A DNA stretch of 64,000 nucleotides from contig NZ_FNKI01000002.1 in assembly GCF_900102925.1 (NCBI RefSeq), positions 434,001-498,000 on the forward strand, read 5' to 3'. The notes under the pieces were generated by a model, which was not told the origin of the DNA, searched no databases, and was given only the letters and a program-made list of their open reading frames with translations. How positions within the stretch are numbered: position 1 is the stretch's first letter; every line of letters starts with the position of its first letter. A program made the translations under genes and the position numbers. Below are positions 53,666 through 62,639 of this stretch, one piece after another. The DNA comes from Flagellimonas zhangzhouensis. GTDB lineage: Bacteria > Bacteroidota > Bacteroidia > Flavobacteriales > Flavobacteriaceae.

Positions 53666-54214
53666 TTAGTTTAAACTGTCGTTATCAATTATGATCGTGT
53701 GTAATTCCACGGATGATTTTAATGGGGTTTTAGGCTCAATTTTGTTGTTGTCGCCTTGGTAGCCATAAGCTTGGGGCGATGGGAATAAAAAGGAAGCCTT
53801 TTCGGAAATCTTGAGCAACTTAATCGCATTTTGAATTCCTGGGAACAATTGCTGTTTGTCAATTACATACGAAGTTGTTCCAATTTCCTCAGCGGTATAA
53901 ATAGTGTCGTTGTCCAGTGTCATTAAATTGTACGAAAACAACACTTGGTCGCCCGTTTGTGGTAAATAGGTCGCCGTATCGTTTTTGGTTTCAAAATAGT
54001 ACCAAAATCCGTTTGGACTGGACAAATATTCGTTTGCGGTATCTTTTTGGATGATTTCTTGAATCAATTTCTCCTCAACAGCCAATAATTCTTTGTTGCG
54101 TTCAATGGACTCCTTGTAATAACTCCCTGATTTCACTTCAACGGGTCGTCTAGGTTCAGGTCCGTCACAATTGACAAGCAAAATGGCCAAAAGAAAAACT
54201 AAAACAAGTCTCAT
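53666..54214 (-). CDS. gldI: Gliding motility lipoprotein GldI (FKBP-type PPIase)
   Basis: A 182-residue lipoprotein (leader ends LLVNCDGPE, Cys16) with an FKBP domain covering about 85-182. Blocks are QTGDQVLFSYNLMTLDNDTI, LFPGIQNAIKLLKISEKASF, FPSPQAYGYQGDNNKI and a final SSVELHTIIID. In Flavobacterium GldI is required for gliding and is grouped with the Gld proteins; the family is also tied to type IX secretion. The ATG overlaps the end of the DHH phosphoesterase gene by four bases (ATGA). It belongs to the run DHH-gldI-PPIase. Confidence 0.93.
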   Translation of the reverse strand: MRLVLVFLLAILLVNCDGPEPRRPVEVKSGSYYKESIERNKELLAVEEKLIQEIIQKDTANEYLSSPNGFWYYFETKNDTATYLPQTGDQVLFSYNLMTLDNDTIYTAEEIGTTSYVIDKQQLFPGIQNAIKLLKISEKASFLFPSPQAYGYQGDNNKIEPKTPLKSSVELHTIIIDNDSLN

Positions 54215-55227
54215 GAATGTAATTTGCTTTTATAGGTTTTTAATATCTCGTTGAATTGGGCAACGGTTTCTTCCATGCTGAGGTCACTTCTTCCTCCTGC
54301 AGCATTATCATGTCCGCCACCATTAAAATGTTCCCGTGCAAATGCATTTACTGAGAAATCTCCGATGGAACGCAAAGATATTTTTATGATGCTCTCTTCT
54401 TTGTTTTCGATAAAAATAAGAGCAAAAATAATACCCTCAAGGGTAAGACCATAGTTTACAAAGCCCTCCGTATCTCCTTTTTTGAAGCCATGCTCGTCCA
54501 ATTCCTCTTGGGTGAGGGTAATGTATGCCGTTTTGTATTCAGGTAAAATGACCATATTGCTCAAGGCTACGCCCAATAAATGTAATCTAGATGGGGAGTT
54601 GGTGTCAAAAATCTGTCTATGGATTTCCATATTTTCGGCACCCTTGTCTATCAATTCAGCAACTACACGATGTGTTTTACTGGATGTGGATTTATATTTA
54701 AAGGAACCCGTATCTGTCATAATCCCAGTGTATAGATTAGTGGCAATTGCTTTGGTAATGCTTTCGGTGGCACCTAGGAAATCGATAAAATTATAGACCA
54801 TTTCACAAGTGGAGCTCATAGTCACATCAGAATAGGTTACCTTGGCATAATCACTGGGTTGTTGATGGTGGTCGATCATAATAAAATCGACCGTAGACTC
54901 TTCCAAAACGGTTTGCAATTGACCAACACGGGAAAGGTCGTTAAAATCCAAGGTGAATATCAGCGTAGCTTCCTCCAAAAATGACTTTGATTGACGGTTT
55001 TCTTTCTCAAAATTGAGCACCGAATCGTTGCCAGGCATCCATTTTAAGAATTTTGGGTAATCGTTGGGTGCAATAACCTGAGTAGTATGCCCCATCCCTT
55101 TTAAAAAAGCATCTAGGGCCAAACAAGAGCCCATGGCATCTCCATCTGGATTCTTATGAGGGATTATGGCAATCTTTTGAGGTTGGGAAAGTATCGACTT
55201 TACTGTCGTGATGTCCGCTGAATTCAT
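54211..55227 (-). CDS. DHH phosphoesterase, NrnA-like
   Basis: A 338-residue bifunctional-type oligoribonuclease/pAp-phosphatase. The metal motifs are IIPHKNPDGDAMGSCLALDA (motif I), TLDFNDLSRVGQL (II), FIMIDHHQQPSDYAK (III, DHH) and the fourth aspartate MTDTGSFKYK. The C-terminal DHHA1 domain ends FNGGGHDNAAGGRSDLSME. NrnA degrades nanoRNAs and dephosphorylates pAp. The -7 box at 55233-55240 ends six bases before the ATG, so the mRNA may be leaderless. It heads the DHH-gldI-PPIase run and is divergent from the PhoD-like gene. Confidence 0.92.
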   Translation of the reverse strand: MNSADITTVKSILSQPQKIAIIPHKNPDGDAMGSCLALDAFLKGMGHTTQVIAPNDYPKFLKWMPGNDSVLNFEKENRQSKSFLEEATLIFTLDFNDLSRVGQLQTVLEESTVDFIMIDHHQQPSDYAKVTYSDVTMSSTCEMVYNFIDFLGATESITKAIATNLYTGIMTDTGSFKYKSTSSKTHRVVAELIDKGAENMEIHRQIFDTNSPSRLHLLGVALSNMVILPEYKTAYITLTQEELDEHGFKKGDTEGFVNYGLTLEGIIFALIFIENKEESIIKISLRSIGDFSVNAFAREHFNGGGHDNAAGGRSDLSMEETVAQFNEILKTYKSKLHS

Positions 55228-55302: not shown

Positions 55303-56338
55303 ATGAAGCAATTTTCTGCATTATTTATTGCTATTGCCCTTTTAAACGGGTGCAAAAAGAAAGAAGAAAAACCAACTTTTGAAACCCCTGAACCCTCTAC
55401 CGATTTTGTGGTTGCTTTTGGGTCTTGTAATATGCCCCAAGAACCCAACCCATTTTGGGATGATGTTTTGGCAGAAGAACCTGATGTTTGGATTTGGGGG
55501 GGGTGATATTGTCTACGCCGATACGGATGATGTGGACAGACTTCGTGCCATTTATGCCATGCAAGATAGCGTGGTGGAGTATTCAAAATTAAAAGCAGAA
55601 GTTCCTATTATTGGTACTTGGGATGATCACGATTTTGGACTTAATGATGGGGGTGCTGATTTTTCTATTAAAAAAGAAAGCCAACAAGTGTTTTTGGATT
55701 TTATGGGGGTGCCAACTGATAGTGAACGAAGAATGAGAGAGGGTGTTTATGCCTCCCACGAATACAAAACGCCAAAAGGGAAAATTAAAGTGATTGTCTT
55801 AGACACGCGTTATTTCCGAAGTGATTTGGTAAAGGATGAAGACCCAAATAGAAGATATCAGGCCAATTTTGATAAAAATGCCACTGTTTTAGGTGATGCC
55901 CAGTGGGAATGGCTTCAAAAAGAACTGACAGGCTCAGACGCGGATTTCAATTTGATCATGTCTAGTATTCAATTTCTTTCCGCAGAACATGGATTTGAAA
56001 CTTGGGGCAATTTTCCCACAGAGGTTGAGAAATTGGAACAAATGATTGCCGAATCCAAAGCCAATGGGGTCATCATTCTTTCAGGAGACCGACATATTTC
56101 AGAGTTTTCCAAAACCGAGGTAGAGGGATTGAATTATCCTTTGATTGATTTCACAAGCAGTGGACTTACGCATTCCTATTCAAGTTTCGAGGGTGAGCCC
56201 AACCAGTTTCGAGTAGGAGAAGTGGTTTCAGATAAAAGTTACGGTATCATTGATTTTAATTTTGAGGATAAAGAGGTGGTTTTTAAAATGATGGGAGACA
56301 ACGGCACTGTGCTTCAGGAATTAAAACAAACTTATTAG
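55303..56338 (+). pseudogene. PhoD-like metallophosphatase lipoprotein, frameshifted at a G8 tract
   Basis: The gene begins with a lipoprotein leader (ALLNGCKKKEEK, Cys17) and the PhoD opening VVAFGSCNMPQEPNPFW. It reads WIWGG and then hits TGA at 55504. Right there is a run of eight G (55496-55503). With seven G the reading would be WGGDIVYADTDD, joining the second frame. That frame then carries all other PhoD-type motifs: GTWDDHDFGLNDGG, VIVLDTRYFRSD and ILSGDRHISEFS, to the TAA at 56338. The repaired protein has 344 residues. So one extra G breaks it: a sequencing error, a recent mutation or a phase-variable switch. The downstream frame shows no decay, which speaks against an old pseudogene. 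Confidence 0.9.
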
Positions 56339-56341
56339 ACC

Positions 56342-56371
56342 TTGTGCGTTGATTGAAAAACCGTACTTTTG
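56342..56371 (+). promoter_or_regulatory. -33/-7 promoter of ndk
   Basis: TTG at 56342-56344, a 19-base spacer, then TACTTTTG at 56364-56371 (perfect TAnnTTTG). The ndk ATG is 18 bases further on. Confidence 0.7.
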
Positions 56372-56389
56372 CGCAAAATTCTATAAAAA

Positions 56390-56809
56390 ATGACTGGAAA
56401 TAGAACATTTACCATGATCAAACCAGATGCTGTTGAAAACGGATACATCGGTGCCATCTTGGAAAAAATAACGGCTGCTGGATTCAAAATCGTAGCCATG
56501 AAGTACACTCAATTGAGTCAAAGAGATGCTGAGGAGTTTTATGGCATTCACAGAGAGCGTCCATTTTTTGGAGAGTTGGTTGAGTTTATGACCAGAGGTC
56601 CTATTGTTGCTGCCATCTTGGAAAAAGACAATGCTGTTGATGATTTTCGTGCATTGATCGGCGCTACCAATCCTGCTGATGCGGCAGAGGGTACCATCCG
56701 TAAATTGTATGCTGCCAGTATTGGTGAAAATGCTGTTCACGGTTCTGATAGCGATGAGAATGCTGCCATTGAAGGTGCATTCCATTTTTCAGGTCGCGAA
56801 ATTTTCTAA
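56390..56809 (+). CDS. ndk: Nucleoside diphosphate kinase
   Basis: Balances nucleoside triphosphate pools by moving the gamma-phosphate through a phosphohistidine. The chain starts [20 protein letters not shown]. The active histidine is in [12 protein letters not shown] (about residue 117). The rest ([18 protein letters not shown] and [18 protein letters not shown]) is canonical. Length 139 residues is normal. It has a good -33/-7 promoter and a terminator, so it is a single-gene unit, divergent from the DHH-gldI run via the PhoD-like gene. Confidence 0.97.
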
Positions 56810-60504: not shown

Positions 60505-60789
60505 ATGCGAAACCCTTTAAAACTTAGGAAAAATAAAAATTTTGATTACTCCCCACGATACTACAAGGGACAGGGCAATCCGTATAAAATAGAACACAAA
60601 CTAGATCAGTTTCGAAGCACAGCGCATACAAATAGAGGCCTTAAAAATAAGTTTACCTCTGCCATGGATGATCTGCAAACGGAGGGGGACAGGAACCTTA
60701 AAATTCGTTTTTGGATCATTGTGGCCGTTTTGATATTGCTGTTTCTCTTCATCATAGACTTTGATCTTTCTATATTCTGGAATCCATAA
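60505..60789 (+). CDS. Small membrane protein upstream of mutL
   Basis: A 94-residue protein with a basic N-terminal half (PLKLRKNKNFDYSPRYYKGQ) and one C-terminal membrane helix (WIIVAVLILLFLFIIDF, about 70-88). Such proteins are sometimes labelled riboflavin synthase beta subunit, but this one shows no lumazine-synthase motif; that label seems a transfer from neighbouring ribH. Function is unknown. Its TAA shares a base with the mutL ATG (TAATGG), so it is probably translated with mutL. The ATG stands 22 bases downstream of the -7 box. Confidence 0.75.
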   Translation: MRNPLKLRKNKNFDYSPRYYKGQGNPYKIEHKLDQFRSTAHTNRGLKNKFTSAMDDLQTEGDRNLKIRFWIIVAVLILLFLFIIDFDLSIFWNP

Positions 60790-62639
60790 TGGCGGACATT
60801 ATTAAGCTTTTACCAGACCATGTCGCCAACCAAATAGCCGCAGGGGAGGTGGTGCAACGCCCAGCTTCTGTAGTTAAGGAGCTTATGGAAAATGCCATTG
60901 ATGCTGGAGCCGAATCCATCAAATTGATTATTAAGGATGGGGGTAAAACCCTAATTCAAGTTGTGGATGATGGATTGGGAATGAGTGAAACAGATGCTCG
61001 ATTGTCATTTGAGCGTCATGCTACCTCCAAAATATCATCTGCACAGGATCTATTCAATTTAAATACCAAGGGGTTTAGAGGTGAGGCTTTAGCTTCCATT
61101 GCCGCGATTGCGCATGTGGATATGCAAACCCGAACCGCGTCGAATGATGTTGGCACCCACCTTAAAATAGAGGGGAGTAAAATTGTTTCCCAAGAGGTGG
61201 TGGCAACCCCAAAAGGGACTTCCATTTTGGTAAAAAATCTTTTTTTTAATATTCCCGCACGACGCAATTTTTTAAAATCGAACCAAGTGGAACTTCGTCA
61301 TATCACTGACGAGTTTCATCGTGTTGCCTTGGTGCACCCGAATATTGAGTTTCATTTTTACAATAATGGCTCGGAGATTTTTAATCTTCCCAAGACCAAA
61401 CACCGTCAACGCATTGCGCATATTTTCGGGAGCCGAATGGAAACTAGATTGGTTCCTGTAAACGAGGAAACCGAAGTATTAAAGGTTTCAGGATTTATTT
61501 GTAAACCTGAATTTGCCAAAAAGAGCAGGGGAGAGCAGTTTTTCTTTGCCAATAACCGATACATTAAAAGTCCGTATTTGCATCATGCTGTTTCAGCTGC
61601 ATTTGAGGGTTTGATCAAATCGGAAATGTTCCCTGGGTATTTTTTGTATTTGGAAGTGGATCCAGGTTCCATTGATATCAACATTCACCCCACTAAAACA
61701 GAGGTGAAGTTTGATGATGAGAATACCCTCTATGCCATTCTTCGTTCCACCATTAAGCATAGCTTGGGGCAATTCAACGTTGCTCCCGTACTCGATTTTG
61801 AGCACGACCCTAATCTGGACACTCCATATAATTACAAAGAAAAAGGGGCCGTTTTGCCCAAGGTGACGGTGGATTCAAACTTTAATCCATTTCAGGAAGT
61901 TCCAAAGAGCAAAAGTTCTGGGGGAGGTACATTTCAAAAACAAAGTACCAAGGGATGGGAAAATCTGTATGAGGGATTGGAACAAGAAGTGGATGTGGAA
62001 CAGTTCAGTAGTTTGGTGATTGAATCTGAAAGTGATGAACAGGGAACGCTCTATGACAGTGAACAGGCTGAAGAACACATGGCTTCTACTTTTCAATTAC
62101 GCAGAAAATATGTGGTGAGTACGGTAAAGTCGGGAATGTTGGTGATTCATCAAAAACGAGCCCACGAGCGTATTCTTTTTGAAAAGTTCCTAAAGGAAAT
62201 CACAGTAAAGGAAGGGGTGAGTCAGCAATTGTTGTTCCCACTAGAATTAAGTTTCAACAAACAAGAATTAGGCATTTTGAACGATATTAGTGAAAGCTTG
62301 ACCAATATTGGGTTTGCCTTTGAAAGTTTAGAACATGAAACGGTAAAAGTGACAGGCGTGCCCTTATTGGTACCCGAATCTGGAATTGGTACGGTTTTAG
62401 ATCGTTTGATAGCGGATTATAGAGAGGGTTATGGAGATGGTTCTATTTCCCAAGCAGAGATGTTGGCCGAAGTTTTGTCCAGAAATCTCGCCGTAAAAAC
62501 GGGAGAAGTACTAGATCAAGAATCGCAAATGGCCTTGGTGAACAATTTGTTTGCTTGTAAAGAACCGACATTAAGTCCCTCACAAAAAATAACATACACC
62601 ATTATCTCCGAAGGGGATATCGATAAAAAATTCAGCTAA
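60789..62639 (+). CDS. mutL: DNA mismatch repair protein MutL
   Basis: A 616-residue ATPase linking MutS to repair. The GHKL ATPase domain is intact: QIAAGEVVQRPASVVKELME, then DAGAESIKLIIKDGG, DDGLGMSETDARLSFERHAT, TKGFRGEALASIAAIAHVD. The C-terminal domain (about 425-616) has the dimerisation fold, but the endonuclease motif DQHA-x2-E-x4-E reads HQKRAHERILFE, and the final CPHGRP block is replaced by KEPTLSPSQKITYTI. So it should lack the nicking activity of most MutL proteins outside the MutH lineage. It is followed by the first rhomboid gene, whose ATG begins directly after its TAA. Confidence 0.96.
   Translation: MADIIKLLPDHVANQIAAGEVVQRPASVVKELMENAIDAGAESIKLIIKDGGKTLIQVVDDGLGMSETDARLSFERHATSKISSAQDLFNLNTKGFRGEALASIAAIAHVDMQTRTASNDVGTHLKIEGSKIVSQEVVATPKGTSILVKNLFFNIPARRNFLKSNQVELRHITDEFHRVALVHPNIEFHFYNNGSEIFNLPKTKHRQRIAHIFGSRMETRLVPVNEETEVLKVSGFICKPEFAKKSRGEQFFFANNRYIKSPYLHHAVSAAFEGLIKSEMFPGYFLYLEVDPGSIDINIHPTKTEVKFDDENTLYAILRSTIKHSLGQFNVAPVLDFEHDPNLDTPYNYKEKGAVLPKVTVDSNFNPFQEVPKSKSSGGGTFQKQSTKGWENLYEGLEQEVDVEQFSSLVIESESDEQGTLYDSEQAEEHMASTFQLRRKYVVSTVKSGMLVIHQKRAHERILFEKFLKEITVKEGVSQQLLFPLELSFNKQELGILNDISESLTNIGFAFESLEHETVKVTGVPLLVPESGIGTVLDRLIADYREGYGDGSISQAEMLAEVLSRNLAVKTGEVLDQESQMALVNNLFACKEPTLSPSQKITYTIISEGDIDKKFS

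Follow-up and report, generated by a model that had tools for sequence, protein, structure and literature searches.

A gene for a predicted PhoD-like lipoprotein phosphatase is broken at a run of eight G residues in the 64-kb window, by which we mean the whole stretch of DNA that was analysed, and the question that this locus raises is what kind of event the break records. The initial annotation had offered a phase switch or a sequencing or assembly error, and passed over the simplest possibility, that a gene the cell can do without has recently suffered an ordinary null mutation.

The divided gene and its product

From the ATG at 55303 the frame reads ...GAT GTT TGG ATT TGG GGG GGG TGA, with 67 codons translated before the premature TGA at 55504-55506, and a different frame stays open through the other 277 codons, up to a stop codon at 56336-56338 (Table 1). 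A direct reading of the sequence bears out the initial annotation in that the frame shifts at exactly eight consecutive G, and its unbroken lipoprotein of 344 residues has a counterpart of that length and the same layout in the intact orthologue of the nearest relative, 'Muricauda sp. NBRC 101325' (87% DNA identity, hereafter the sister). The first residues of the gene are MKQFSALFIAIALLNGC..., a signal with an LLNGC lipobox that is followed by FGSCN. Beyond the break there are zero internal stops, the motifs DIVYAD, GTWDDHDF, LDTRYFR and SGDRHISEF are found, and identity to the orthologues of 62 congeners is 60-90%, such that the description of the rest of the gene as a conserved PhoD-like lipoprotein also stands.

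Table 1. Features of the locus and a further gene of the window, in window coordinates.
Feature	Position	Strand	Basis and remarks
5' part of PhoD-like lipoprotein gene	55303..55506	+	Aligned with N-termini of intact orthologues; signal peptide, lipobox LLNGC (Cys17), FGSCN first motif; 67-aa product
G8 homopolymer, codons of conserved Trp-Gly-Gly-Asp motif	55496..55503	+	Read directly from the sequence; relatives read TGGGGNGGN
3' part, PhoD-like phosphatase body, shifted frame	55505..56335	+	PF09423 E=2e-19
NrnA-like DHH-family phosphoesterase, divergent upstream neighbour	54211..55227	-	ORF list; name presumed from sequence
Nucleoside diphosphate kinase ndk, intact downstream neighbour	56390..56809	+	ORF list; name presumed from sequence
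MutL	60789-62639		Named from its sequence

Sequence profiles and a structure model together indicate that the product of the intact gene would be a short PhoD-like metallophosphatase lipoprotein. Residues 13-204 of the phosphatase body match Pfam PF09423 with 70.4 bits (gathering score 27), a profile built from 20 intact orthologues matches PhoD 2yeq, and an AlphaFold2 model of the sister protein (mean pLDDT 80.6, pTM 0.83) has 2yeq_A as its best Foldseek match (E 7.8e-12, TMq 0.65), with purple acid phosphatases next. FGSC, WDDHD and SGDRH are invariant in the 20 orthologues and aligned to 2yeq, and the PhoD-like motifs are all present in the window sequence, though divided between two frames. 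The protein thus shares with the PhoD family (PF09423, 2YEQ) the metallophosphatase fold and, aligned wholly or partly, the motifs FGSC, GDxxYAD, WDDHD and SGDxH. In contrast to PhoD 2YEQ, which has 522-527 aa, the gene here encodes about 344 aa, has a lipoprotein signal and carries a frameshift, and with 48.9 bits it falls far under the 1000-bit cut-off of the NCBIfam PhoD equivalog NF058638. The 67-aa stub gave only sub-threshold matches to Pfam and NCBIfam. No second PhoD-family gene that could act as a back-up was found in the genome, where the locus is the sole PF09423 match.

Both neighbours hold their positions among relatives, the NrnA-like gene lying beside the locus even in those that lack the phosphatase. 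A TACTTTTG box is located 5' of ndk (56340-56389). As this box fits the Bacteroidetes -7 consensus TAnnTTTG and is identical in the sister, ndk probably has its own promoter, independent of read-through from the broken gene.

The tract site, the gene in relatives and the age of the break

The named records of its orthologues place the genome, that of a marine flavobacterium, in the Flagellimonas/Muricauda/Allomuricauda group. Of the genomes of 72 further species in the genus, 62 have the gene, with an uninterrupted frame in every one, which leaves the copy in the window as the only broken one among the 63 congeneric genomes that carry the gene. At the tract site the sister and all 37 close orthologues read the sequence given in Table 1, and their longest G run is 4. 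The first Gly codon of the motif is GGG in 2 of 71 orthologues, both of them distant and both forming an in-frame G7, and the second is GGG in 26 of 71. In the genome and its sister GGG is about half as frequent for Gly after Trp or before Gly as it is for Gly overall, which amounts to a mild and general avoidance of G runs. Since a long G run is missing from the 37 close orthologues, the G8 tract is likely to be private to this lineage and recently acquired, and no conserved switch. A conserved contingency tract, as a candidate explanation, was rejected for the same absence.

A protein search found no orthologue in 10 of the 72 congeners. In the four of these that were inspected (G036, G023, G008 and G024) it is cleanly missing from between the two flanking genes, so the phosphatase gene is dispensable and its loss is tolerated.

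The window copy is disrupted relative to intact orthologues, as a recent pseudogene would be, and no relaxation of constraint is seen, an absence that is to be expected if the lesion is very young. Relative to the sister, dN/dS is 0.077 before the tract and 0.080 after it; on this measure the gene ranks at about the 90th percentile among nearby genes, and its value falls inside the range seen for other pairs of orthologues of the same gene (0.034-0.168). Amino-acid changes that could be assigned by outgroups number 14 on the branch of the window and 12 on that of the sister, and all 132 residues that are invariant among 37 orthologues are retained. By these three measures no decay 3' of the break was found, and a gene so undecayed points to a break that is either very young or not real. 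The initial annotation had likewise called the defect recent, and the conserved residues, low dN/dS and balanced branches are in agreement with this.

Homopolymers and the quality of the assembly

The G8 tract is the only G/C run of at least 7 in the window. By dinucleotide shuffles the window should contain about 6 G7 matches, and it contains 2, which overlap; if anything, long G runs are scarcer than expected, and as a DNA string the G8 is no excess. The genome as a whole has 27 G/C tracts of at least 7, nine of them of at least 8, and inspection of all 27 placed most in long open frames, with a few intergenic or ambiguous. Four other ORFs of the same genome contain G8 or G9 tracts in frame, and among the 27 tracts no other coding run visibly breaks a frame. 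What goes beyond chance is that this G8, alone among the coding tracts, marks the very point at which a gene conserved in all other respects is broken.

A frameshift screen, in which 404 kb around the locus were aligned with the sister and 254 sister ORFs (272 kb) compared, identified a mid-gene frameshift in one ORF, that of the PhoD-like locus. The other flagged ORFs, as read from the list, differ in start site or C-terminal end or by stop-codon substitutions. The ORFs of the 404-kb stretch contain about 166 A/T runs of 7-9, none of which breaks a frame. A single frameshift in 254 ORFs, together with unbroken A/T and G/C runs, makes homopolymer-prone sequencing seem unlikely; an assembly prone to homopolymer errors was as such rejected as a candidate, there being no sign of one over the aligned part of the 404 kb.

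Exact 95-base overlaps occur at two pairs of contig ends and suggest a k-mer-graph assembly of short reads, which lowers the chance of an error and does not remove it. In assemblies of this type single-base errors at homopolymers of 8 nt are rare. The end of contig C4, both ends of C5 and the start of C7 share some 590-820 bases that are 99.3-99.9% identical, and this near-identical sequence at four contig ends is a repeated element at which the assembly breaks.

Competing explanations and other candidate sites

We consider it probable, with moderate confidence, that the break is a recent, lineage-private slippage frameshift, and hence a null allele of a dispensable phosphatase gene. Silent changes in the lineage would have closed the gaps between the G runs in the Trp-Gly-Gly codons and so formed a single continuous tract, which replication slippage would then have put out of frame, and the cell would have been left with a 67-residue lipoprotein stub and without its PhoD-like phosphatase, in an allele too young for the rest of the gene to have decayed. 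We infer that the DNA of the strain truly has a tract of this length, that slippage produced it and that it is not kept as a switch. Should the G8 be genuine, the strain is without the only PF09423-type phosphatase of its genome, and this trait varies across the genus. Against this null allele, the full lack of decay also fits an error or a reversible allele, and a survey that covers older genomes leads one to expect a sequencing error more often than a true indel behind a singleton frameshift whose homologues are intact (PMC3711429). The locus fits the class of singleton frameshift pseudogenes and sequencing errors in that classification, in that one broken copy stands among intact orthologues, the site is not conserved and there is no recoding signal, and no difference from the class is apparent. 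A residual sequencing or assembly error, with an intact 344-aa gene in the strain and a wrong base count in the deposited sequence, is the rival to be taken most seriously, even if we regard it as unlikely. The absence of any decay, the intact state of all 62 other congeneric copies, the nature of a coding G8 as the hardest kind of position to call and the expectation from PMC3711429 all speak for it. On the other side, an error-prone assembly should show an excess of homopolymer frameshifts, and the comparison of 254 ORFs found this one and no further mid-gene case; the nearby coding A/T runs break no frame, the genome's remaining G8-G9 tracts in coding sequence are in frame, and the contig-end overlaps suggest short-read k-mer assembly. 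The error named in the initial annotation thus keeps a place among the explanations and is made less likely by the lack of other homopolymer frameshifts where the assembly was compared.

In other bacteria G tracts this long serve phase variation, and slipped-strand mispairing at this one could reversibly turn a surface phosphatase on or off, in which case the assembly would record the off state. Such a switch would be consistent with the position of the tract within the coding region of a lipoprotein gene that is otherwise under purifying selection, and the locus resembles the contingency genes of Neisseria and Campylobacter in having a G homopolymer inside the frame of a surface protein that is out of frame in the sequenced clone. 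It differs from them in that the tract is not conserved in any close relative, whereas a maintained contingency locus would retain it, and in that mismatch-repair genes, MutS and MutL, are present. The codon that would create a long run is mostly avoided at the site, a rarity that matches the general avoidance of GGG in the genome, and the other G8-G9 coding tracts are in frame. Comparison with close relatives, which the initial annotation had itself proposed, went against the phase switch that it had offered, as did these further points, and we judge a switch improbable. In the literature that was searched, no relevant paper on phase variation in Bacteroidetes or Flagellimonas/Muricauda was found. 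A nascent contingency locus, with a slippage-prone tract newly evolved since the split from the 87%-identical sister, is a shade less probable again; if true, it would illustrate, at a young stage, the way in which loci of this kind arise. One gene broken at a homopolymer in one assembly is, by itself, no evidence of a switch. Leaky recoding, by a forward ribosome shift at GGG-UGA or by RNA polymerase slippage, might restore some full-length product, and a forward shift on the last GGG would yield exactly the W-G-G-D of the orthologues, with the UGA that follows immediately being itself a slow codon, as in prfB, and with no decay of the gene. We nevertheless find it very improbable: a programmed site would be conserved in orthologues, all congeneric orthologues are one open frame and none uses such a site, so that recoding here would be accidental, and transcriptional slippage insertions, where measured, fell in A/T runs alone, from which the authors concluded that G/C runs are not prone to them (PMC5574713). 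Least credible, to the point of being negligible, is an alternative product of 319 aa initiated at the TTG at 55379 in the frame of the body, which is open from there to 56338. Its N-terminus, ILWLLLGLVIC, resembles another lipoprotein signal by chance, and the protein would be without the invariant FGSC motif and would depend on an unsupported TTG start. The alternative frame is open by chance in many relatives and cut by stops in others, and this product was rejected, as neither a conserved start nor a signal-like peptide was found in relatives.

Several other sites in the genome merit mention. The longest G/C run found, of 13 bases (C9:1460200-1464300, 2061-2073), falls within the final codons of a membrane-protein-like, 160-aa stop-to-stop frame (...LRGGGGGKG), where changes in its length would alter the tail only; it is a better slippage candidate than the G8. 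A G10 tract (C5:140200-144300, 2082-2091) has no ORF of at least 90 codons across it and is possibly a promoter- or leader-spacing repeat. On the minus strand, a G8 (C8:296400-300500, 2011-2018) stands right at the beginning of a truncated-haemoglobin-like ORF whose conserved part is preceded by no ATG; this ORF probably starts at a TTG beside the tract, and the tract could affect initiation. A sulfatase-like gene (C5:63300-67400) is cut near 2522-2524 by an in-frame TAA (...YPKSKEF*EKYGPRG...), is open in the same frame 3' of this stop and is followed by a second, similar sulfatase-like frame, and from its sequence appears to be a nonsense-mutated sulfatase.
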